64,000 bases of DNA from Solirubrobacter ginsenosidimutans (GTDB lineage Bacteria; Actinomycetota; Thermoleophilia; Solirubrobacterales; Solirubrobacteraceae), in NCBI RefSeq assembly GCF_027587205.1, contig NZ_JAPDOD010000028.1:57546-121545 (forward strand), written 5' to 3'. How positions within the stretch are numbered: position 1 is the stretch's first letter; each line of letters begins with the position of its first letter. The notes beneath the pieces are model-generated. The model was given only the letters and a program-made list of their open reading frames with translations, was not told the origin of the DNA and ran no database searches. Below are positions 3,866 to 32,779 of this stretch, piece by piece. The translations under genes and the position numbers were made by a program.

Positions 3866-5008
3866 GTGAATGACACCGGTCGCGTGGCGCTCGTCCACGA
3901 CTACCTCAACCAGCGCGGTGGGGCCGAACGCGTCGTACTGGAACTCGCGGCGCTGTTTGACTCGGCCCCGATTTTCACATCGCTTTACAGACCGGATTCC
4001 ACGTTCCCGAAATTTCGTGAACATGTGATTCACACTTCGCCGCTCGACCGCCTCAAAGTGGATCGCGGCTTCCGTAATTGCTTTCCGCTGTATCCCGCCG
4101 CGTTCCGGTCGTTCGGGGTGCTCGACCACGACCTCGTCATCTCCAGCTCGAGCGCCTGGGCGCACGCGGTCCGCACCGCTCCGGGAGCACTCCACGTCGT
4201 CTACTGCCACACCCCGGCGCGCTGGCTCTACGGCACGGAGTACCTGGGCTCCTCGCGCCGCCAGGCGGCGCTGACCCCGGCGCTGGGCGCGCTGCGCCGC
4301 TGGGACCGGCGCGCCGCGCGGCGCGCGGACCTCTACGTCGCCAACTCGCACGAGGTGCGCCGGCGGATCGAGCGCAACTACGGCATCGACGCGGCCGTCG
4401 TGCACCCGCCGGTCGACGTCGACCGGTTCGTCGCCCGCCCGCGCGGGGAGCGCCTGCTCGTCGTCTCGCGGCTGCTCCCCTACAAGCGCGTCGACGCGAT
4501 CGTCGACACCGCCACGCAATTCGGCATCGGGCTCGATGTCGTTGGCATCGGCCCGTCGCTCGAGGACCTCCAAGCCCGCGCCGGTTCGACCGTCACCTTC
4601 CACGGCCGGCTCCCCGATCGCGACGTGACCGCCCTGATGCAGAACTGCCGCGCGCTCTGCCTGCCCGGCTATGAGGACTTCGGCATCACCCCGGTCGAGG
4701 CGCAGGCCGCGGGCAAGCCGGTGGTGGCGTTCGCCGCCGGCGGCGCGCTGGAGACGATCGAGGAAGGCCGGACCGGCGCGTTCTTCAAGCGCTACGACAC
4801 CGAGGACGTCCTCGACGCGATCCGTCGCTGCGATGCCCTGGAGACCTCGCCGGACGCGATCGCCGCGGGCGCGCGCCGCTTCTCCCGCCAGGCGTTCCGG
4901 GAGCGCCTGCTGGCGGTGATCGGGCTGCGCTCCGCGGCGCGCGAGAAGGCGGGGCGCTTCGCGCCCGCACGCGGCCTGGAGCCCGGCTTCGCGCCGTCGC
5001 GTCCATGA
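3866..5008 (+). CDS. GT4-family glycosyltransferase (WbaZ-like)
   Basis: 380 aa, GT-B fold. The N-terminal domain opens with VALVHDYLNQRGGAERV (Gly-rich donor/acceptor loop) and carries VYCHTPARWLY, typical of mannosyl- or galactosyltransferases of the WbaZ/RfaG kind. The C-terminal nucleotide-sugar domain has YEDFGITPVEAQAAGKPVV, the E-X7-E signature of GT4. Cytoplasmic; it adds one sugar to the repeat unit. GTG start chosen because of the -10 at 3853. The stop overlaps the next ATG by 4 nt. Donor sugar cannot be told from sequence. Confidence 0.88.
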   Translation: MNDTGRVALVHDYLNQRGGAERVVLELAALFDSAPIFTSLYRPDSTFPKFREHVIHTSPLDRLKVDRGFRNCFPLYPAAFRSFGVLDHDLVISSSSAWAHAVRTAPGALHVVYCHTPARWLYGTEYLGSSRRQAALTPALGALRRWDRRAARRADLYVANSHEVRRRIERNYGIDAAVVHPPVDVDRFVARPRGERLLVVSRLLPYKRVDAIVDTATQFGIGLDVVGIGPSLEDLQARAGSTVTFHGRLPDRDVTALMQNCRALCLPGYEDFGITPVEAQAAGKPVVAFAAGGALETIEEGRTGAFFKRYDTEDVLDAIRRCDALETSPDAIAAGARRFSRQAFRERLLAVIGLRSAAREKAGRFAPARGLEPGFAPSRP

Positions 5009-7314
5009 ACGATCGCCCGCTGCTGCTGGGCAAGGGCTGGTTTCCCGACCAGCTCGGCGGGCTTGACCGGTATTACCGCGACCTCCTGGAGCACCTCCCG
5101 GAGGCCCGCGGCATCGTCGTCGGGGGTACGGCCGCGCAGCCCGAGCGGGTGGGCCGCGGCGCGGGCGGCGCGCTGGGGAGCGCGCCGCCCGCCCGGGTCG
5201 TGATCGCCTCCGGGCACGACCGGCCGCTGCCGCACCGGCTCGTCGCCTACTGGCTCGCGGCGGCTCGCGCCGGGCGCGGGGTCGACGTCGTCGACGCGCA
5301 CTTCGCGCTCTACGCGCTCGCGCCGCTGTATCTCGGCCCGCTGCGCCGCAAGCGCGTCGTCCTGCACTTCCACGGGCCGTGGGCCGACGAGAGCGTCGCG
5401 GCGGGTGAGCGCTCGCGGGTGAAGGTCGCGGCCAAGCGGGCGCTCGAGCGCGCCGTCTATCGCCGCGCCGACCACGCGGTGGTGCTCACCAGCGCGTTCA
5501 AGCGCGTGCTGGTCGAGCGCTACGGCGTCAAGCCGTGGATCGTCGCCGTCGAACCGCCTGGGGTCGACCTCGAGCGTTTCAGCCTCGGCTCACCTGCCGC
5601 GGCGCGGGAGCGGTTCGGCCTGGGCAACGAGGCGTTCGTCGCCGTCGCCGTACGGCGCCTCGTCCCGCGCATGGGCCTGGAGGTGCTGCTCGACGCGTGG
5701 GAGGACGCGCGGCCGTCGCTTCCCCCCGGCAGCACGCTGCTGATCGCCGGCGACGGGCCGCTGCGGGGCGCGCTCGAGGAGCGGGCGGGAACCGGCGTGC
5801 AGATCCTGGGCCGGATCGGCGAGGACGAGTTGACCGACCTCTACCGCGCCGCGGACGTCGGCGTCGTCCCCACGCTCGCGCACGAGGGCTTCGGGCTCGT
5901 CGTGATCGAGGCCGCCGCGTGCGGGACGCCGAGCATCGTCACCGCCGTCGGCGGCCTGCCCGAGGCGGTCGCCGGCCTGGACGAGACGCTGATCGTGGAG
6001 CCGGGCAACACGGCCGCGCTGGCGGACCGGCTCATCAGCGCCCAGCACGACCGGCCGACCCCGCGGACCACCCGCGAGTACGCCGAGCGCTTCGCGTGGC
6101 CGCGGGTCGCCGAACGCCACCGGGCGATCATGCGCGGCGGGGTCGGCGACGAGCGGATGAAGGTCGTCTACGTCGACCACGTCGCCCGCCTCTCCGGCGG
6201 CGAGATCGCGCTCCTGCGGCTGCTCCCGCACCTCGATCGCGTCAACCCGCACGTGATCCTCGCCGAGGAGGGGCCGCTGATCGACGCGCTGCACCGCGAG
6301 GGCATCTCGACCGAGGTCCTGCCGCTCGACGACGCCGCCCGCAGCCTGCGCAAGGCGCGCGTCCAGGCCGGTGGCGTGTCGCCCCGCGCCGCGGCGGCGA
6401 CCGCCGCCTACACGCTGCGGCTCGCGCGCCGCCTGCGTCAGCTCCGCCCCGATCTCGTGCACACCAACTCGCTCAAGGCCGGCGTCTACGGCAGCGTCGC
6501 CGCGCGGATCGCGGGCGTCCCGGTCGTCTGGCACGTGCGCGACCGGATCGCCGACGACTACCTGCCCACCCACGCGGTCCGGCTCGTGCGCCGCATGAGC
6601 CGTCACCTCGCGACCGCGATCGTCGCGAACTCCCGGAGCACGATGGCGACGCTCGAGGCGGGCAGCGGTCCGACCGTCATCTACTCGGTGGTGCCCGAGG
6701 TGATGCACCGGATCGGCACCCCGACCCGCATCGACCGCCGCCCGATGACCTACGGGATCGTCGGGCGACTCGCCCCCTGGAAGGGCCAGCACCTCTTCCT
6801 CGACGCCTTCGCGCGGGCCTTCCCGGAGAGCGGCGAGCGCGCGGTCGTGGTCGGCGGCGCGCTGTTCGGCGAGGACGACTACGCGCGTGAGCTGAACCGG
6901 CTGGCGGGAAGCTTCGGCATCGCCGACCGCGTCGAGTTCCGCGGCTTCCGGCCCGACGTGTGGGGCGAGCTCGAACGCCTCGACGTGCTCGTGCACGCCT
7001 CGGTCACGCCGGAGCCGTTCGGCCAGGTGATCCTCGAGGGCATGGCCGCCGCCGTCCCCGTGATCGCCGCCCGCGCGGGCGGGCCCGCGGAGATCCTCGC
7101 CGACGACCTCACCGGCCTGCTCGTCGAGCCCAACGACGTCGGCGAGCTCGCCGCGGCGATGGTCCGCATGCAGGATCCCCAGCTGCGCGCGCGGCTGGCG
7201 ATCGCCGCGCGCCAGGAGGTCCGCCGCTATGAGCCGGACGTGGTCGCCGACCAGTTGCAGGCGCTCTACACGAAGGTAACCGCGCAGCACCGCCGCGCGG
7301 AATCGCCGCGCTAG
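5005..7314 (+). CDS. Bifunctional GT4-GT4 tandem glycosyltransferase
   Basis: 769 aa, twice the usual GT4 length. Residues 1-384 form a complete GT4 (opening GKGWFPDQLGGLDRYYRDLL; signature HEGFGLVVIEAAACGTPS). Residue 385 is Met (codon at 6157) and starts a second complete GT4 (MKVVYVDHVARLSGGEIALL; signature PEPFGQVILEGMAAAVPVI). No stop or frameshift separates them, so two neighbouring genes appear fused by loss of a stop. Both halves keep the E-X7-E pair and should be active, giving two successive transfers in one polypeptide. Overlaps the previous gene by ATGA. Its TAG stop lies in a CTAG at the edge of palindromic element A. Confidence 0.85.
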   Translation: MNDRPLLLGKGWFPDQLGGLDRYYRDLLEHLPEARGIVVGGTAAQPERVGRGAGGALGSAPPARVVIASGHDRPLPHRLVAYWLAAARAGRGVDVVDAHFALYALAPLYLGPLRRKRVVLHFHGPWADESVAAGERSRVKVAAKRALERAVYRRADHAVVLTSAFKRVLVERYGVKPWIVAVEPPGVDLERFSLGSPAAARERFGLGNEAFVAVAVRRLVPRMGLEVLLDAWEDARPSLPPGSTLLIAGDGPLRGALEERAGTGVQILGRIGEDELTDLYRAADVGVVPTLAHEGFGLVVIEAAACGTPSIVTAVGGLPEAVAGLDETLIVEPGNTAALADRLISAQHDRPTPRTTREYAERFAWPRVAERHRAIMRGGVGDERMKVVYVDHVARLSGGEIALLRLLPHLDRVNPHVILAEEGPLIDALHREGISTEVLPLDDAARSLRKARVQAGGVSPRAAAATAAYTLRLARRLRQLRPDLVHTNSLKAGVYGSVAARIAGVPVVWHVRDRIADDYLPTHAVRLVRRMSRHLATAIVANSRSTMATLEAGSGPTVIYSVVPEVMHRIGTPTRIDRRPMTYGIVGRLAPWKGQHLFLDAFARAFPESGERAVVVGGALFGEDDYARELNRLAGSFGIADRVEFRGFRPDVWGELERLDVLVHASVTPEPFGQVILEGMAAAVPVIAARAGGPAEILADDLTGLLVEPNDVGELAAAMVRMQDPQLRARLAIAARQEVRRYEPDVVADQLQALYTKVTAQHRRAESPR

Positions 7315-7315
7315 C

Positions 7316-7694
7316 GGGCCGAACGTCAACTGCGCCGGGTGGGGAGGGGGAAGTGCGAGCCACCGGTCCCGGGCTGCCGTGAGTCCGGCGCGCCTCTCGG
7401 CTCTGTTGCCTCGAACTCTTGCGCCGGGACACCGACAGGTACGGGCTACGGAGACAGAAAGGGCGTTCTCACGCGCGCCGCTCACCCCGCGGGACCGGAT
7501 TGCGAGGGGGTGCGTAACGAGAGCGTCCTCTCAGGAACTTCTCGTTACACACCCCCATCTGCGCGCCAGCTCGAACAGTGCGAACCTGATCGAAACTTGC
7601 GACCCGTGCCTCAAACGCGCACGGTCGACCATGGCGAAGGCAGACCCGGAGGGGGCGCCACTCCCCTTCCCCCACCCGGCGCAGTTGACGTTCG
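7316..7694. mobile_element. Palindromic intergenic element A (MITE-like)
   Basis: Fills the gap between convergent genes ending at 7314 and 7695. Outer arms: 7320-7351 pairs with about 7662-7694 (CGAACGTCAACTGCGCCGGG at left, its complement at right). A sub-arm near 7396-7447 is shared with element B. A central hairpin at 7506-7556 has 17-nt arms with a single U:G mismatch and an apical TCCT/AGGA stem. The whole element is homologous to 30715-31222 but inverted. No transposase inside. Probably a non-autonomous mobile element or structured RNA; the right terminus looks eroded. Confidence 0.6.
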
Positions 7695-9500
7695 TCAATT
7701 CCCAACGACGGCGGTACGCCGGTAGACCACGGTCGAGTCGGCGCCGTTCACGCGCGTGAAGCCGGGCGGTGTGTCGCCGAGCTCGCGGACGAGCCGCACC
7801 GGACCGGAGTCCTCGTCGGTCCACCCGTGCTCCATGAACAGCGCGTCGTGGAGCACCACGTGGCCGTCCGGCGCGACGAAGGGCGTCCACTCCTCCCAGT
7901 CGCGCTTGACCGCGTCGTAGGCGTGGTCGCCGTCGATGAACAGGAAGTCGATCGGCGCGCGCCACCCGCGGACGGCTTCGGTGCTCAGCTGGCGCAGCCA
8001 GTGCACCGTCACGCCCTTGCGGCTCGCCTTGCCCACGAGCCGGCGCGCGGTGACGAGCGAGAAGCTGACGCCGACCCGGCCCTTGGGGTAGGGGTCGATG
8101 AGGTGCAGCGTGGCGTCGTGCGCGACGACGTTGGCCAGCTCGTACGCCGAGCCGCCCTCGGAGACCCCGATCTCGACGACGCAGCGCGCCCCCGCTCCGT
8201 ACTTGACCAGCAGCGCGGCCTCGCGCTCGGAATGCTCCGCCGCGGGCCGGCGCAGGCCGGCCGCCGCAACCACCCGGTGGCGCTGCCAGCCGAGATCCGG
8301 ACGGTGAAGTATCGCCTGTGTCATGTGCTCTCCTGTGCGCGGCCGGTGCAGGGATCGGTAGTACGCCCGCAGCGCTTGCTGCGCCGTGCGCTGCCACGTG
8401 AAGTGCCGCGCCGTCTCACGCGCGCGGGCGCCGAGGTCGGCCCGTAGCGCCGGGTCCGAGGCCAGGCGGCCGAGCGCCGTCGCGAGCGAACGGGCGTCGC
8501 CGGCCCCGACGAGCAATGCGCCGGCGCGCTCGGGCTCGGCGGCGCCGAAGATCTCGCGATGCCCGCGGGCGTCGCTGACCACGCACGCGAGCCCGGCCGC
8601 CGCGGCCTCGAGCGTCGACAGCGGCATGCCCTCAAACCACGACGGCAGCACGTACGCGTCGTGGTCGGCGAGCAGCTCACGCAGGGCCGCGCGCTCGAAG
8701 CGCGGCACGACGGAGACCGAGGCGCGAGCCGGCTGCGGGAAGGCGTCGAGGACCGCGGTCTCCGGCACCGAGGCGCCGAGCACCGAGAGCCGCGCGTCAG
8801 GGAAGCGCCGGCTGGTCTCGGCCCACGCCTCGACCAGCTCGGGCACCCCCTTGCGATCGATCCAGGTGCCGATGAACGCCGCGCGCAGCGGCCCGCCCGC
8901 AGCGGGCGGCGGCGCCGCGAAGAACCCGGGTTCGACGCCGGTCGTCGCGATCGTCACCGTCTCCGGATCGCGTCCGCGCTCGATCAGGAACGCGGCATCG
9001 TCGGAGTTGAGGACGATGACCGCGTCGGCATGCTTGAGCGCGTAGCGCGATTGCGGGAGCCGCGTCAGCGGGACCGAGAGGCGCGATTTCCGGCTGACCC
9101 GCCTGCCCTTGGCGCGCGCACGCGCCAGCAGGGCATGCCAGTACGGCTCGTCGAGGCCGTGCGACTGGACGACGCAGGGCGGCATCCCGCGTCCGCCCAG
9201 CAGCTTGCGCAGCCAGCAGTAGACCGCCGCGCTGGACTCGTGGATCTCGACGACGTCGATCGGGTGCCGCCGCGCCAGCGCGCGGCAGCGCAGCGCGATC
9301 GCGAACGGCGCGACGAACCGGCGGGCAACCGGGGGAACACGTTCAGTGAGGATGTCGCGGCTGAACAGGTACAGCACGCGGTGACCGCCGCGCGTCAATT
9401 CCGCGCCGCTCTGCAGCATGAAGCCGGTCATCCCGCCGTTGGCGTCGGCCTCGACGTCGGCGACCTTCAGAACGGTGAGGCGTTCCTTGGCAGGAGGCAT
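7695..9500 (-). CDS. GT4 glycosyltransferase fused to a class I SAM methyltransferase
   Basis: 601 aa. Residues 1-390 are a GT4 transferase (FEGMPLSTLEAAAAGLACVV gives the E-X7-E site). Residues 393-601 are a Methyltransf_24/CmcI-like domain with CVVEIGVSEGGSAYELAN (SAM loop), LIDPYPKG and FLFIDGDHAYDAV. Met393 (ATG at 8324) is preceded by AGGAGA at Shine-Dalgarno distance, so the methyltransferase may also be made alone. Likely adds a sugar and an O-methyl group to the polysaccharide. The stop TGA lies in the arm of element A. Last gene of the 13111-to-7695 operon. Confidence 0.82.
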   Translation of the reverse strand: MPPAKERLTVLKVADVEADANGGMTGFMLQSGAELTRGGHRVLYLFSRDILTERVPPVARRFVAPFAIALRCRALARRHPIDVVEIHESSAAVYCWLRKLLGGRGMPPCVVQSHGLDEPYWHALLARARAKGRRVSRKSRLSVPLTRLPQSRYALKHADAVIVLNSDDAAFLIERGRDPETVTIATTGVEPGFFAAPPPAAGGPLRAAFIGTWIDRKGVPELVEAWAETSRRFPDARLSVLGASVPETAVLDAFPQPARASVSVVPRFERAALRELLADHDAYVLPSWFEGMPLSTLEAAAAGLACVVSDARGHREIFGAAEPERAGALLVGAGDARSLATALGRLASDPALRADLGARARETARHFTWQRTAQQALRAYYRSLHRPRTGEHMTQAILHRPDLGWQRHRVVAAAGLRRPAAEHSEREAALLVKYGAGARCVVEIGVSEGGSAYELANVVAHDATLHLIDPYPKGRVGVSFSLVTARRLVGKASRKGVTVHWLRQLSTEAVRGWRAPIDFLFIDGDHAYDAVKRDWEEWTPFVAPDGHVVLHDALFMEHGWTDEDSGPVRLVRELGDTPPGFTRVNGADSTVVYRRTAVVGN

Positions 9501-22056: not shown

Positions 22057-24045
22057 CTAATGAAGCGCGGAAGCGCGCTGGTTTTCTTCCTGTGTAGAGC
22101 GGGATTGACGGTCCGCTTTATGCGACTTCCACGCATCGAGGCGTCCTGACTGCGTCGACGTGAAGCGCGTCCACGGCCGCGCGATCCCGGTCGCGGCGTG
22201 GCGAATGAGGTTGGCGAGCCCGGGCGCGTCGTACGTACCGACGCCGAAGCCCCAGAGCGAGAACACGACCCGCTGCGACAGTGAGAAGTAGTCGAGCAGT
22301 TGCAGGCCCTCGTTGTGCGCGGCGTCGCGGATCGCCTCGCCCGAGACGTCCTCGCGCTCGCGGCCGAAGCCGCGCGACTGCGGGTAATGGCGCACCACGA
22401 TCGACGGGTCGTAGAGCAGTCGCAGGCCACGCCGGCGCAGCGGGAGGCAGATCGAGAGCTCGCTGTGGACCTCGACCCCGCGGCCCCGGAGCCGGTCGTC
22501 GAAGCCGTGCGCGACGACGTCGGTGCGCCGGAAGCTCATGTTGACGCCCTTGAGGACGTCGACGTCGCGGGCGCCGCCGACCCCGATGTGGTGGTTGCCG
22601 AGCATGCGGCCGAACCACTGGATGCGGCCGACGTGCGGCGGGCCGAACGTCCGCACGAGCACCCCCTCGTCACCGCGGTTGCGGATGTGCCCGTCGACGC
22701 TGATCACGTCGCGGCCGCCGACGCCGGCGAGCGCTCCATCGCGCACGTAGTGCGAATGCAGCCGCTCGACCCAGTCCAGCTCCGGGATCGCATCGTCGTC
22801 GACGAAGGCAACGATCTCCTCCGTCGCCGCGAGCAGGCCCCGGTTGAGCGCGGCGACGAGCCCCGGCGGGGTGACGGTCACCCGTCGCAGCTGCGGCCAC
22901 TCGGCCGCTCGCGCGTCGACGAACGGGGCGCTCTCGTCATCGGAGGCGTGCACGACGACCACGACGTCGTCGGGCGGCCGCGTCTGGGCGGCCAAGGCGT
23001 CGAGGCATGGCCCGAGCGTGCGAGTGCGGCGGTACGTCGTGACCACCACCGTGATGGTCGGATCCGCCTCGCGTAGCGCGAACGACTGACGCGGCGTGTG
23101 CCGGTGCGTCCGCCACGCGTCGCGGCGCGCCTGCTGTGCGGCGCGGAAGCAGGTCCACGCGCGGCGGCCCGCGAGCCCGTGCCGCGCCAGCGACACGAGG
23201 CCCGGAGCGCGCTTGGTGCCGACGAGCAGCCCCCAGGCGGCGAAGGCTGCGCGCCGCGGCGGCGTCAGATGGTCGAGCAACTGCAGCGCTTCGTTGTAGG
23301 TCCAGTCGTAGACGGCGTCGTGGTCGGAGATCACGCGGCTGTCGCCCGCGGGCCGCGGCGCGGGGTGGTGGTGCACGACGATCGCCGGGTCGTAGACGAG
23401 CCGAAGCCCGCGCCGGCGCAGCGGCAGGCAGATCGACAGTTCCGAATGCGGTTGGGCGCCTGGCCCGCGCAGGCGCTCGTCGTACCCGTGAGCGGCGACC
23501 GCGTCGCGCCGGAAGGCCATGTTCGCGCCCTTGAGGACGTCGACGTCGCGGGCGGCGCCCTCCCCGATGTGGTGATTGCCGATGTGCCGCCCGGACCACT
23601 GGATCCGCCCGACCGCCGGTGCTCCGCGGAAGCGCCCGAGGAACCCCTGGTCGTCGCGGCCGAGGATCTTCCCGGAGGTGTGGACGACGTCGCGCCCGCC
23701 GACCGCGGCGATCCGGGGGTCCTGGGCGAACGTCGCCTTGATCCGCTCGAGCCATTCCGGCACCGGGATCGCATCGTCGTCGACGAGGGCGACGAGGGTT
23801 CCCGTGGCCGCCTTGAGCCCGGCGTTGAGCGCGGCGACCGACCCGCTCTCGGTCACGGCGACGACGCGCACCTCCGGCCAGCGCTCCATCGCGATGGCGC
23901 TCGCCTCGTCGGACGCGTGCAGCACGACCACGAGCTCGTCCGGGCGGTGCCGCTGCGCTCGCAGGCCCTCGAGGCAGTTCTCCAGCGCGTGCGGGCGCCG
24001 GTAGCTCGTCACGACGACGGTCACCGTCGGCGATGGCTCCGCCAT
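22057..24045 (-). CDS. Tandem GT2-GT2 glycosyltransferase (internal duplication)
   Basis: 662 aa from ATG 24045. Two homologous GT2 units: about 7-300 (TVTVVVTSYRRPHALENCL; VDDDAIP at 88-94) and about 330-640 (TITVVVTTYRRTRTLGPCL; VDDDAIP at 415-421). They share long identical blocks such as GNHHIG, RDVDVLKG and SELSICLPLRRRGLRL, so this is a duplication rather than two unrelated transferases. Both keep the Asp cluster for metal and donor. Chimeric enzymes of this kind often build alternating or disaccharide polymers. The C-terminal tail (last 25 residues) is lower in GC and Ser/Gln-rich. Confidence 0.85.
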   Translation of the reverse strand: MAEPSPTVTVVVTSYRRPHALENCLEGLRAQRHRPDELVVVLHASDEASAIAMERWPEVRVVAVTESGSVAALNAGLKAATGTLVALVDDDAIPVPEWLERIKATFAQDPRIAAVGGRDVVHTSGKILGRDDQGFLGRFRGAPAVGRIQWSGRHIGNHHIGEGAARDVDVLKGANMAFRRDAVAAHGYDERLRGPGAQPHSELSICLPLRRRGLRLVYDPAIVVHHHPAPRPAGDSRVISDHDAVYDWTYNEALQLLDHLTPPRRAAFAAWGLLVGTKRAPGLVSLARHGLAGRRAWTCFRAAQQARRDAWRTHRHTPRQSFALREADPTITVVVTTYRRTRTLGPCLDALAAQTRPPDDVVVVVHASDDESAPFVDARAAEWPQLRRVTVTPPGLVAALNRGLLAATEEIVAFVDDDAIPELDWVERLHSHYVRDGALAGVGGRDVISVDGHIRNRGDEGVLVRTFGPPHVGRIQWFGRMLGNHHIGVGGARDVDVLKGVNMSFRRTDVVAHGFDDRLRGRGVEVHSELSICLPLRRRGLRLLYDPSIVVRHYPQSRGFGREREDVSGEAIRDAAHNEGLQLLDYFSLSQRVVFSLWGFGVGTYDAPGLANLIRHAATGIARPWTRFTSTQSGRLDAWKSHKADRQSRSTQEENQRASALH

Positions 24046-29605: not shown

Positions 29606-30715
29606 GTGCGTCTGATCCCTTCTCGCAAGATTCGCGACGGTGTGGAGCTCGCCCGCGACATCGTCGCGGGGCCGCCCGGCACGGCGCCATTGCTCCGGGC
29701 CGGGGTCAAGCTCTCAGCGCGCTACGCGGAGCTCCTGCCGAAGGCGGGGGTCGGGTCGGTCTGGATCGAGGACGACCTCGGTGAGGCGATCGAGATCGCC
29801 GAGCCGCTGTCGGTCGAGACGCGCGCCAAGGTCCATAAGGCGACCGGCGCCGCACTGACCGCCGCGGGCGCCGCGTTGCGCAGCGGCTCTGGGATGCCCG
29901 CCCCGATCGTCGAGTCCCTGAACGACGTCGCGGGCGCGATGGTCGACGATCTCCTGGACTGCCCGGACGCCGCGCTCGCGCTGGACGATCTCTCCTCCTT
30001 CGACGACTACACCCACCGCCACAGCGTCCAGGTCACCGTCCTCGGCCTGCTGATCGCGCGCCGCGCCTGGACCGTCGACGGCTGGACGGACTTCCGCGGC
30101 CGCCTCCGCCACGACCGCCTCGAGGAGCGCATGCGCAAGCTCGGCCTCGGGCTCCTCGTCCACGACGTCGGCAAGCTCGCGGTCCCGCCCGAGATCCTCA
30201 ACAAGCCCGGTCGCCTGACCGGCGAGGAGATGGAGGTGATGAAGACCCACGCCCACGCGGGCGTCGAGCTCCTTCGCCCGGCCGACCTCTCCCCGATCGC
30301 GATCTCCGTCGTCCGCGACCACCACGAGCGCATCGACGGCTCCGGCTACCCGGAAGGCCTGCACGGCGCCCAGGTCCAGGAGTTCCCGCGCATCGCCGCC
30401 GTCGCCGACGTCTACGACGCGGTCACCTCCGAGCGCGTCTACAAGCCGGCCGCGCCGCCGCACGTCGGCGTGCACGTGATCCGCGACGGGACGGGCGCCA
30501 ACTTCTGCCCGTCGATCGTCCGCCACTTCCGCGCCGTGGTCATGCCCTATCCCGTCGGCCACGAGATCAAGCTGCCCGACGGCCGCACCGCCGTCGTCTC
30601 CTCCGTCGACATCCATGTTCCGGACGTGCCCACCGTGCGGGTGATGGGCGCCGCGGGTGTGGAGGAGTTCTCGGTCGATATGACCGCGGGTGCTGAGCGG
30701 GTCGCGGCGCTCTAG
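29606..30715 (+). CDS. HD-GYP-domain cyclic-di-nucleotide phosphodiesterase
   Basis: 369 aa, GTG start. The N-terminal part (1-110) has no clear domain. The HD-GYP domain spans about 130-310: HRHS (His139), HDVGK (186-190), KTHAHAGVELL, DHHERIDGSGYP (238-249) and ADVYDAVTSERVYKP. The GYP signature is GSGYP, still compatible with c-di-GMP hydrolysis. A C-terminal beta domain (315-369) resembles a PilZ- or SH3-like extension. It may link c-di-GMP level to polysaccharide output. Its TAG stop uses the TA next to element B and the element's first base. Confidence 0.85.
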   Translation: MRLIPSRKIRDGVELARDIVAGPPGTAPLLRAGVKLSARYAELLPKAGVGSVWIEDDLGEAIEIAEPLSVETRAKVHKATGAALTAAGAALRSGSGMPAPIVESLNDVAGAMVDDLLDCPDAALALDDLSSFDDYTHRHSVQVTVLGLLIARRAWTVDGWTDFRGRLRHDRLEERMRKLGLGLLVHDVGKLAVPPEILNKPGRLTGEEMEVMKTHAHAGVELLRPADLSPIAISVVRDHHERIDGSGYPEGLHGAQVQEFPRIAAVADVYDAVTSERVYKPAAPPHVGVHVIRDGTGANFCPSIVRHFRAVVMPYPVGHEIKLPDGRTAVVSSVDIHVPDVPTVRVMGAAGVEEFSVDMTAGAERVAAL

Positions 30716-31222
30716 GGACGAAAGTCAACTGCGCCGGGTGGGGAGGGGGAGTGGCGCACCCTCCGGGACTGACTCGCCGTCGTCCGCCGCTCGGCGCGGC
30801 TCTGTTGGCTCGAAGTGCCGTGCTGGGATACCGACAGTTACGGGCGTGGGCTGGCCAGTGTGTCCCGCACTCGCGCTGTCCCGGGTCGCCGTGGTCGACC
30901 GTGCGCGTTTGAGGGACAGGTCGCGGATTTCGATCAGGTTCGCACTGTTCGATGTGGCGCGTCGGTGGGGGTGATGAACAATTGAGTCCTCACAGGACGC
31001 ATTTGTTCATCACCCCCTCGCGCATGACTTCTTTGCTCGCCGAAACCGATCACCGCAAGGCCCGGCGCGGATCGGGGTGTCAGCACCACGCCCGTAACTG
31101 TCGGTACCCCAGCACGCCAATTCGACCCCAACAGAGCCGCGCGCCGAGCGGGTTCACGCCAGCCAGGGACGGGTGGCACTGCCACTCCCCCTCCCCCACC
31201 CGGCGCAGTTGACTTTCGTCCC
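30715..31222. mobile_element. Palindromic intergenic element B (MITE-like, TA flanks)
   Basis: 508 bp between convergent genes. Ends read GGGACGAAAGTCAACTGCGC and its complement; with one 1-nt bulge the outer arms pair for about 44 nt, and a sub-arm (about 30785-30850 with 31086-31160) extends the stem to about 135 nt. Central hairpin: perfect 15-nt arms 30967-30981 and 31003-31017, apical GTCCT/AGGAC with loop CAC. TA flanks both ends within CTAG (30713-30714, 31223-31224), the target pattern of IS630/mariner elements. No transposase. Homologous to the element at 7316-7694. Confidence 0.7.
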
Positions 31223-32592
31223 TAGAACAGCGTCTCGCCGGAGGACGGAACCACCGTCACCCGCCCATCGTGCATCCGCACGGTCAACGTCGCCGCCGCC
31301 CGCGCCGCCTCAGCGCTCGTAACCGGCTCGCCGTCCGCACCCTCGACCAGCGCATACCCCCGCTCCAAGGTCCTCTGCGGGTCATGTGCCGCCAACGTCG
31401 CAAGCACACGATCGAGCTCTCGGCGGCGCCGCTCCAGCGCCACACCCGAGGCCCGCTCCAATGCCACACCATCCCCAAGCGCACGACGCCCCGCCCGCTC
31501 GCTCGCCACCGACGCCGCGGTCGCCTTGCGCTCCAGCGTCGCCGCGCGCGACAAGGTCTGTCGCTCGCCGGTCGTGACCGCCCGGCGCGTCGCCGCGCGC
31601 AGCTCGCGCACCTGCTGGTGCAGGCGGGTGCGGTGGCGGGCGATGTGATGGCCCGGCGCGCGTGAGAGGCGGGCGAGCGTGCGGGCGCGCTCGAGCACGG
31701 CGCGGCGGCCCTGGCGCTCCAGCCGTCTCGTGGCGTTGACCAGCGCGACGCGGGCGGCCGTGCAGTCCACCGGGACCGCGGTCTCGGCCGCGTGGGTGGG
31801 GGTCGAGCAGGCGACGGCCGCGACGTCGTCGAGCAGCGTGCGGTCGGTGTGGTGACCGACGCTCGAGATCACGGGGACGCGCAGCAGCGCGACGGTGCGG
31901 CACAGGGTCTCGTCGCAGAACGCGAAGAGGTCCGCGAGCGAGCCGCCGCCGCGGGCGACGACGATCACCTCGACCTCCTCGCACGCCGCCAGGTCCTGCA
32001 CCGCGCGGGCGATCGCCGGCGCGGCGTGGCGGTCCTGCACCGGCGCGAAGCCCCACACGAGCCGCCCCGCCCAGCCGCGGCGGCGCAGACCGGCGAGGAC
32101 GTCGTCGCGCGCCTTGCCGGATTCACCGGTCACGACGCCGATGCAGCGCGGCAGCTTCGGCAGCGTCAACGCCTTCTGCGGCTCGAACAACCCCTCGGCG
32201 TGCAGGCGGCGCCGCAGCTGTTCGAGCTGGGCGAGCAGATCGCCCTCGCCGGCGACCCGCAGGCGCGTGACGGCGAAGCTGAACCCGGGCGACGCGGTGC
32301 GCGACCCGGGGTAGTAGTCGCACCCGCCGGCCACGACCACCTGCGCGCCGTCCTGCAGCGTGCCGAGCCGCAGCTTCTCGAAGTCCTCGCGCCACATCGA
32401 GCAGGGCAGCGCGCCACCCGCGTCACGCAGCTCGAACCACACCTTCGCCCGCCCGGCCTTGAAGCCGAAGACCTCGCCGAACACCTGCACGCGCGTGAAG
32501 CCCCGCAGCCGGTCGCGCAGCGCGGCCGCGTAGGTGCCGACGGGATAGGGCCCGGTGAGGACCGATCCGGGGATGCCGTCGGGAGCTTCCAT
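31222..32592 (-). CDS. xseA: Exodeoxyribonuclease VII large subunit
   Basis: 456 aa. The N-terminal OB-fold (about 10-110: VQVFGEVFGFKAGRAKVWFE, then LPCSMWREDFEKL) binds ssDNA. The core has IGVVTGESGKARDDVLAGL, VIVVARGGGSLADLFAF and PVISSVGHHTDRTLLDDVA, the ExoVII large-subunit signature. A long Arg-rich coiled region (about 310-410) follows. It degrades single-stranded DNA from both ends with XseB; no xseB is visible here. ATG 32592 chosen because TACCGT (32608-32603) lies 10 nt upstream. The TAG stop uses the element B boundary. Confidence 0.88.
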   Translation of the reverse strand: MEAPDGIPGSVLTGPYPVGTYAAALRDRLRGFTRVQVFGEVFGFKAGRAKVWFELRDAGGALPCSMWREDFEKLRLGTLQDGAQVVVAGGCDYYPGSRTASPGFSFAVTRLRVAGEGDLLAQLEQLRRRLHAEGLFEPQKALTLPKLPRCIGVVTGESGKARDDVLAGLRRRGWAGRLVWGFAPVQDRHAAPAIARAVQDLAACEEVEVIVVARGGGSLADLFAFCDETLCRTVALLRVPVISSVGHHTDRTLLDDVAAVACSTPTHAAETAVPVDCTAARVALVNATRRLERQGRRAVLERARTLARLSRAPGHHIARHRTRLHQQVRELRAATRRAVTTGERQTLSRAATLERKATAASVASERAGRRALGDGVALERASGVALERRRRELDRVLATLAAHDPQRTLERGYALVEGADGEPVTSAEAARAAATLTVRMHDGRVTVVPSSGETLF

Positions 32593-32602
32593 CGCGTCGG
32601 TG

Positions 32603-32608
32603 ACGGTA
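32603..32608 (-). promoter_or_regulatory. -10 hexamer TACCGT of xseA
   Basis: On the minus strand TACCGT precedes the xseA ATG by 10 nt with no Shine-Dalgarno, as expected for a leaderless transcript. Confidence 0.5.
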
Positions 32609-32656
32609 GCCGGGCGGGTGGACGGCGAGCGCGGGCGCCGCGGCCGCCGGGCGCAA

Positions 32657-32690
32657 CGAACGTCAACTTGATCGGGTAGAGCCCGATCAA
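32657..32690. repeat. Stub sharing the terminal motif of elements A and B plus a hairpin
   Basis: CGAACGTCAACT (32658-32669) equals the outer end of element A. It runs directly into a hairpin with 9-bp arms TTGATCGGG (32668-32676) and CCCGATCAA (32682-32690). No matching second terminus is seen nearby. Could be a relic or a different member of the same family, or chance. Confidence 0.35.
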
Positions 32691-32779
32691 CCTTGCTCTC
32701 GCGCCGCTGGTGAGCGCCAACGCGCCAACACCGGCGAAGCGGCTCAAGGTCCACGCCTCGCCTGCCGATAACAAGAACT

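Follow-up and report, generated by a model that had tools for sequence, protein, structure and literature searches.

A palindromic repeat element of Solirubrobacter, probably mobile and non-autonomous, in a CTAG shared by two convergent stop codons

A 508-bp palindrome, here termed E, separates two convergent genes in the 64-kb window, i.e. the whole stretch of DNA that was analysed. Insertion of E into a CTAG common to the TAG stop codons of both genes is well supported. We read E as a non-autonomous mobile palindrome of the MITE/REP-like kind that was guided to the shared site by CTAG/YTAR and rebuilt both stops, and assign this reading a probability of roughly 0.7. The proposed course of events is that a non-coding palindrome from a Solirubrobacter repeat family would enter the CTAG of overlapping convergent TAG stops and duplicate either TA or the whole CTAG, while its G...C ends would recreate both stops and leave the proteins unaltered. 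Guidance by CTAG/YTAR, the presumed true target, would lead to harmless landing sites, and the same site would be open to a new insertion in another species. A trans-acting enzyme would probably bring about this movement, and a hairpin in the core of E may be the recognition site of this enzyme, a bidirectional terminator, or both. E is best assigned to a new Solirubrobacter family of non-autonomous palindromic repeats whose core is conserved and whose placement is of the CTAG type; no description of this family was found among the literature matches listed, which covered few subscription papers.

Architecture of E and its empty sites

The sequence of E and its coordinates agree with those in the preliminary description. 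The element itself covers positions 30716-31221, has no assigned strand and measures 508 bp when the flanking G and C are counted (30715-31222). It fills the entire gap that separates the stop of an HD-GYP domain gene (29606-30715, plus strand; start uncertain and placed at 29642 by the codon-usage caller) from the convergent stop of xseA for the large subunit of exonuclease VII (31222-32754, minus strand; Pfam Exonuc_VII_L; start uncertain, 32592 according to the caller). The left CTAG (30712-30715) supplies TAG as stop codon for the HD-GYP gene, and the right CTAG (31222-31225) supplies CTA as that for xseA, which is read on the minus strand. That a palindrome lies between these stops with CTAG on each side is confirmed by the sequence, by pairing and by folding: the left arm (30711-30853, plus strand) is 83% complementary to the right arm (31081-31226, minus strand) over about 143 nt, and the region 30700-31240 folded as DNA yields -214.8 kcal/mol compared with -121.3 (sd 5.5) for 100 shuffles (z -17). 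The end sequence of E is GGGACGAAAGTCAACTGCG. Terminal inverted repeats had been described as perfect; they are present, and 39 nt pair at 95%, so perfection does not hold. The longest ORF among those of at least 80 aa that touch E, flanking genes aside, comprises 94 aa, and E is thus without a transposase, as originally stated.

E is built in three layers: the arms, a motif within the arms, and the core. The arm motif ACCGACAGTTACGGGCGTGG is located at 30830-30849 on the plus strand and its partner copy at 31086-31105 on the minus strand. A part of it, ACCGACAGTTACGGG, recurs at loci of S. soli, S. phytolaccae and S. deserti, and S. taibaiensis carries the variant GTCAAGGTACGGGC in its place. 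The core, which is an addition to what was described earlier, consists of a 41-nt motif (30926-30966, plus strand) that contains TCGCACTGTTCGATGTGGCGCGTCGGT and is conserved in Solirubrobacter copies as judged by alignment and by the match to R1, a model of the core, followed by a 51-nt hairpin of the form GGGGGTG...CACCCCC (30967-31017). Together they match R1 at 30926-31017 with 88.9 bits, E being one of the 12 source sequences of that model. E has the properties of a MITE in the broad sense, as it is non-coding and multicopy, carries terminal inverted repeats and has empty sites.

Removal of E and one TA should, as was claimed, restore a single CTAG in which both stops overlap, and a search for such empty sites in relatives had been suggested. 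They exist in four species. Fusing the host flanks of E at a single CTAG gives CTAGAACAG, a string found identically in S. taibaiensis. The HD-GYP and xseA genes overlap by the 4-bp CTAG in S. taibaiensis, in S. deserti CPCC 204708 (two assemblies) and in genome G017, and in S. phytolaccae one CTAG terminates both genes as seen from sequence, translation and the Exonuc_VII_L match. Genome G064 is uninformative on the xseA site because its HD-GYP neighbour is without an ortholog among the window genes. As originally proposed, the G...C ends of E recreated the TAG of each gene, so that both proteins stayed the same. Note that a duplication of TA is indistinguishable from one of the 4-bp CTAG, because the target is palindromic and E starts with G and ends with C.

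The gene pair for D-Ala-D-Ala ligase and a Ser/Thr kinase offers a second such locus. Here the two genes of G017 overlap by CTAG. Inserts occupy the junction in two species: that of S. soli measures 522 bp and matches the core strongly (74.9 bits), and that of S. taibaiensis is a palindrome of 474 bp whose core match is weak (30 bits). The gap amounts to 17 bp in S. phytolaccae, 26 bp in G064 and 49 bp, with a different motif, in S. deserti. Relatives have the same gene pair at two loci, and at each of these one or more species show the empty CTAG overlap; the carbonic anhydrase and CheD-like loci are uninformative because the neighbouring gene differs in the relatives. In three species, short convergent gaps (39, 49 and 87 bp) are taken up by a further dispersed motif, GTCGGATGATCGGGGTGGGG; its sites are L130:5690 and L108:420 in S. 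soli, L147:4501 and 5575 in G064, and L161:1474 and L138:11379 in S. deserti. Exact matches to it occur at 8 of 232 loci and nowhere in the window. On a larger scale, the window is largely syntenic with four of five relatives from the HD-GYP gene onward, and positions 1-29600 have two weak orthologs only in the matching stretches of the five.

The xseA site is also occupied in S. soli, namely by an S. soli-type copy whose core lies on the strand opposite to that of E. Over 131 nt, eight further copies in S. soli are 0.89-0.93 identical to this one. E groups with C2, the second copy in the window, at an identity of 0.75, which is hardly above the 0.74 to one S. soli copy. The simplest reading of these comparisons, though not a proof, is that E and the S. 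soli element may have arrived independently at one CTAG. Descent of both from one vertically inherited insertion is disfavoured by the opposite orientation and by the place of the S. soli copy within the S. soli expansion; a relationship through inversion with homogenisation is possible.

A multicopy family and its core

E is multicopy: the window holds a second copy, and many relatives exist in Solirubrobacter genomes. C2 (7315-7694, minus strand) lies between the convergent stops of a glycosyltransferase gene (5005-7314, plus strand) and a glycosyltransferase/methyltransferase gene (7695-9500, minus strand). One of its ends shows CTAG (7311-7314), the opposite one TTGA in gene orientation. 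According to blastn, C2 is 71% identical to E over about 337 nt, with two additional arm stretches at 77% and 87%; part of its left arm is without counterpart in E. Its core motif and 51-nt hairpin (7506-7597, minus strand) score 85.4 bits with R1. Because C2, like E, is among the 12 sequences from which R1 was made, their scores are not independent evidence; the blastn similarity is. The window contains two copies of the family. What looked like a third copy near 22640 proved to be a 12-mer matching by chance, and neither E nor C2 matches there. An exact 20-mer of the E terminus had no match in genome contigs or viral contigs, blastn of E found none in plasmids, and a single weak 44-bp phage match (E 0.5) is taken as chance.

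R1 matches were obtained in all seven genus genomes (two of which are assemblies of one strain; the window species is not among them), with 14 to 126 in each at E <= 0.1 when both strands are counted and the maximum of 126 in S. soli. The total of 421, from 150 candidates scored per genome, includes many places counted on two strands. When 232 genomes of the order were searched with stricter filters (18 candidates scored per genome), 14 had matches at E <= 1e-6. Scores above 50 bits were exclusive to S. soli, S. taibaiensis and S. phytolaccae among the scored candidates; the remaining genomes reached at most 42.3 bits, several of them with the hairpin part alone. In these searches the family was detected in soil bacteria of the genus Solirubrobacter and in a close relative, and its apparent absence elsewhere is provisional. 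At one S. soli locus (L097; C10:232140, 232435) the element is partly duplicated in tandem, with two cores and right arms in series.

The best conserved part of the family is the core, not the termini. Within the hairpin, stem sequence varies and pairing persists. Changes on both sides of the stem number 57 versus a shuffle mean of 22.5 and at most 16 when the structure is slid by one to three columns, and the covariation score is 0.551 versus 0.151; the structure was picked on these same sequences and is therefore favoured over the slid versions. The hairpin is 51 nt long in 34 of 39 copies and 52 nt in five, and another set gave 38 at 51 nt, five at 52 and one at 73, numbers that are biased because most loci were retrieved with a model of that length. 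Copies are more alike within a genome (identity 0.47) than between genomes (0.40), a difference not reached in any of 2000 permutations; it owes much to S. phytolaccae (0.57) and little to S. soli (0.42). The pattern resembles that of repeats spreading or converting inside a genome. At two apparently orthologous pairs of S. taibaiensis and S. phytolaccae loci (L121/L033 and L122/L037), whose flanks are similar by eye, the stems are quite different and both are well paired.

G-T and A-C mismatches in the stem are about equally frequent (9 vs 6 in motif-bearing copies, 20 vs 22 in the others), so that nothing points to wobble pairing within a single RNA strand. This argues that the palindrome is maintained as DNA, either because a DNA hairpin is under selection or because one arm is copied onto the other, and it argues against a one-stranded RNA. 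A further-reaching proposal, which we consider doubtful, is a novel kind of mobile palindrome: the enzyme would read a central DNA hairpin of fixed length by its shape, the terminal repeats could diverge freely, and a CTAG target would confine the element to overlapping convergent stops, where its insertion would be invisible to both proteins and would supply a two-way terminator.

E may plausibly have a terminator role as well. One terminator-like match of five pairs lies within the core, and shuffles average 0.3. In principle, the stable central hairpin, the convergent location and the conserved pairing could belong to a functional bidirectional terminator or a structured RNA that is under selection at convergent gene ends and does not move. 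We regard this explanation as improbable. Four species are without E at the xseA junction, and in 361 kb of the relatives' DNA, selected solely for its position around xseA, R1 finds one motif-bearing copy, the one at the S. soli xseA site, and one hairpin pair in G017, so that most of the 58 convergent junctions in that DNA (the 67 of the six stretches analysed, minus nine in the window) are without the element. The balance of G-T and A-C mismatches also speaks against it. A search of Rfam with positions 30600-31350 returned four matches, the best with E 0.27 and none near the gathering score.

CTAG sites and placement of the copies

From the matches listed, 40 distinct high-scoring places were picked by hand (32 in S. 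soli, three in S. taibaiensis, five in S. phytolaccae), with contig-end places (G001:C21, G005:C157) and others of similar score omitted. They comprised 27 convergent, ten tandem and three divergent positions. The convergent fraction (27/40) compares with 19 of 147 gaps longer than 50 bp in the six stretches (p 3e-11), the first 20 places, all from S. soli, included 16 convergent ones, and convergent junctions make up 67 of 390 in the baseline. Genes of the relatives were predicted with a purpose-written codon-usage caller instead of curated annotation, and the window, together with E and C2, forms part of the baseline stretches, as does the S. soli xseA copy. The 13 of 40 places that are not convergent count against our preferred reading of a CTAG/YTAR-guided mobile palindrome.

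CTAG occurs 134 times in 425 kb, whereas base composition predicts 1083, an eightfold depletion. Seventeen of these sites lie within genes and 60 between them; a single stop is touched by 39, and convergent overlaps account for the other 18. The precise landing of E would be explained by this rarity of CTAG and its concentration at stops and between genes. TA, with 3658 sites in the same DNA, 2788 within genes and 24 at convergent overlaps, is found mostly inside genes, and a CTAG/YTAR target therefore suits the placement better; TA alone would account for it only with strong selection. Selection against insertions within genes also plays a part. Twenty-four of the 67 convergent junctions are 4-bp overlaps (18 CTAG, four CTAA, two TTAG). 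According to the available text of PMC2174442, such overlaps allow four tetramers, CTAA, TTAA, CTAG and TTAG, and all four fit YTAR.

The sequences flanking the copies are mixed: E has CTAG on both sides, C2 at one end only, and other copies vary. The stops at the ends of 29 convergent copies (27 in relatives, two in the window) are 32 TAG, 19 TGA and seven TAA. A T stands before 12 of the 39 TA-type stops at element ends, compared with 15 of 144 for the remaining genes (p 0.004), an excess that would fit relics of YTAR. The preceding base is G at 14 and A at three of these 39 stops, and these 17, along with TGA at 19 of 58 ends, fit our reading less well.

CTAG on each side of E would also be expected for a MITE of an IS5-type element that produces a 4-bp YTAR/CTAG duplication. 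The ends of IS5 begin with GG. YTAR is the IS5 duplication motif given in the accessible part of PMC10359306, and the tetramers possible at convergent overlaps all conform to it. We nevertheless consider an IS5-type origin quite unlikely. PF01609 transposases are few in the genus (nine matches in five of the seven genomes, the window species not included), and the ends at the five of nine loci inspected are unlike those of E; the clearest terminal repeat, at two of the five, is GGGGCTGTCGCGTAAGTC. While a CTAG target is possible for E as for IS5-type insertion sequences, E has no internal transposase and a matching insertion sequence was not detected in the genus genomes searched.

Candidate mobilisers and comparable systems

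Three candidate mobiliser families were searched, DDE_3, PF01609 and PF01797, and no autonomous partner or matching transposase for E was found among them in the genus genomes. This result at the loci inspected weighs against our preferred reading of E as a non-autonomous mobile palindrome, as does the variation of the termini: unlike those of ordinary MITEs, they differ from species to species, and in some cases a single copy has two dissimilar ends.

Y1-type (PF01797) genes are present in six of the seven genus genomes, and REPs sit between convergent and unidirectional genes according to the text available for PMC3733652, two observations that would fit a repeat of the REP/BIME type mobilised by a RAYT tyrosine transposase. 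The same source describes how the ends of GTAG REPs often provide a TAG stop, and like REP/BIME elements as described there E is extragenic, prefers convergent gaps, supplies TAG stops with its ends and has a species-specific sequence. This origin is very unlikely all the same. REPs are hairpins of 20-40 bp with a GTAG/CGTC tag; E, at 508 bp, is more than ten times longer, and its 51-nt core hairpin has a GGGGGTG foot and shows no such tag. Ten of 13 Y1/RAYT loci were inspected, and the palindromes there are of other sequence, with no core match above 9.1 bits and no association of the family with the Y1 genes at these ten loci. The small palindromes near these genes (L201, L203-L208, L210, L211, L213) mostly read TAAAGRGG...TTTA and perhaps resemble the TIRtrons of PMC3733652, as far as its available text describes them.

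ERIC, Correia/NEMIS and RUP are MITEs with TA duplication. E is like them a short, non-coding, dispersed and intergenic palindrome with TA at each end; it is unlike them in that its termini vary between species, its central motif and hairpin are best conserved and it sits at overlapping stops. The preliminary description had placed E in the IS630/mariner group, a membership that is not supported: Pfam DDE_3 had matches in none of the seven genus genomes (two of the same strain, the window species not included), whereas the control search matched in three of 14 genomes, two of them above the cut-off, and the termini are species-specific. A 17-mer inside one terminus type of S. soli occurs singly or at element-size spacings only and never flanks a gene-size interval. 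Least probable of the explanations is accordingly that E is an IS630/Tc1-mariner MITE which a DDE transposase, recognising terminal repeats, excised and reinserted at TA, even though TA stands on each side of E, the 39-nt terminal repeat is nearly complementary and several S. soli termini read TAGGGG, since DDE_3 is missing from the seven genus genomes searched, the termini vary and TA poorly explains the placement.

The core hairpin, nearly constant in length and with arms that vary yet remain matched, can be tested as the substrate of an enzyme or a DNA-binding protein. E provides a clear case of genome rules creating a safe harbour: CTAG is scarce in genes and present at convergent stop overlaps, and an element aiming at CTAG harms nothing and restores both stops.
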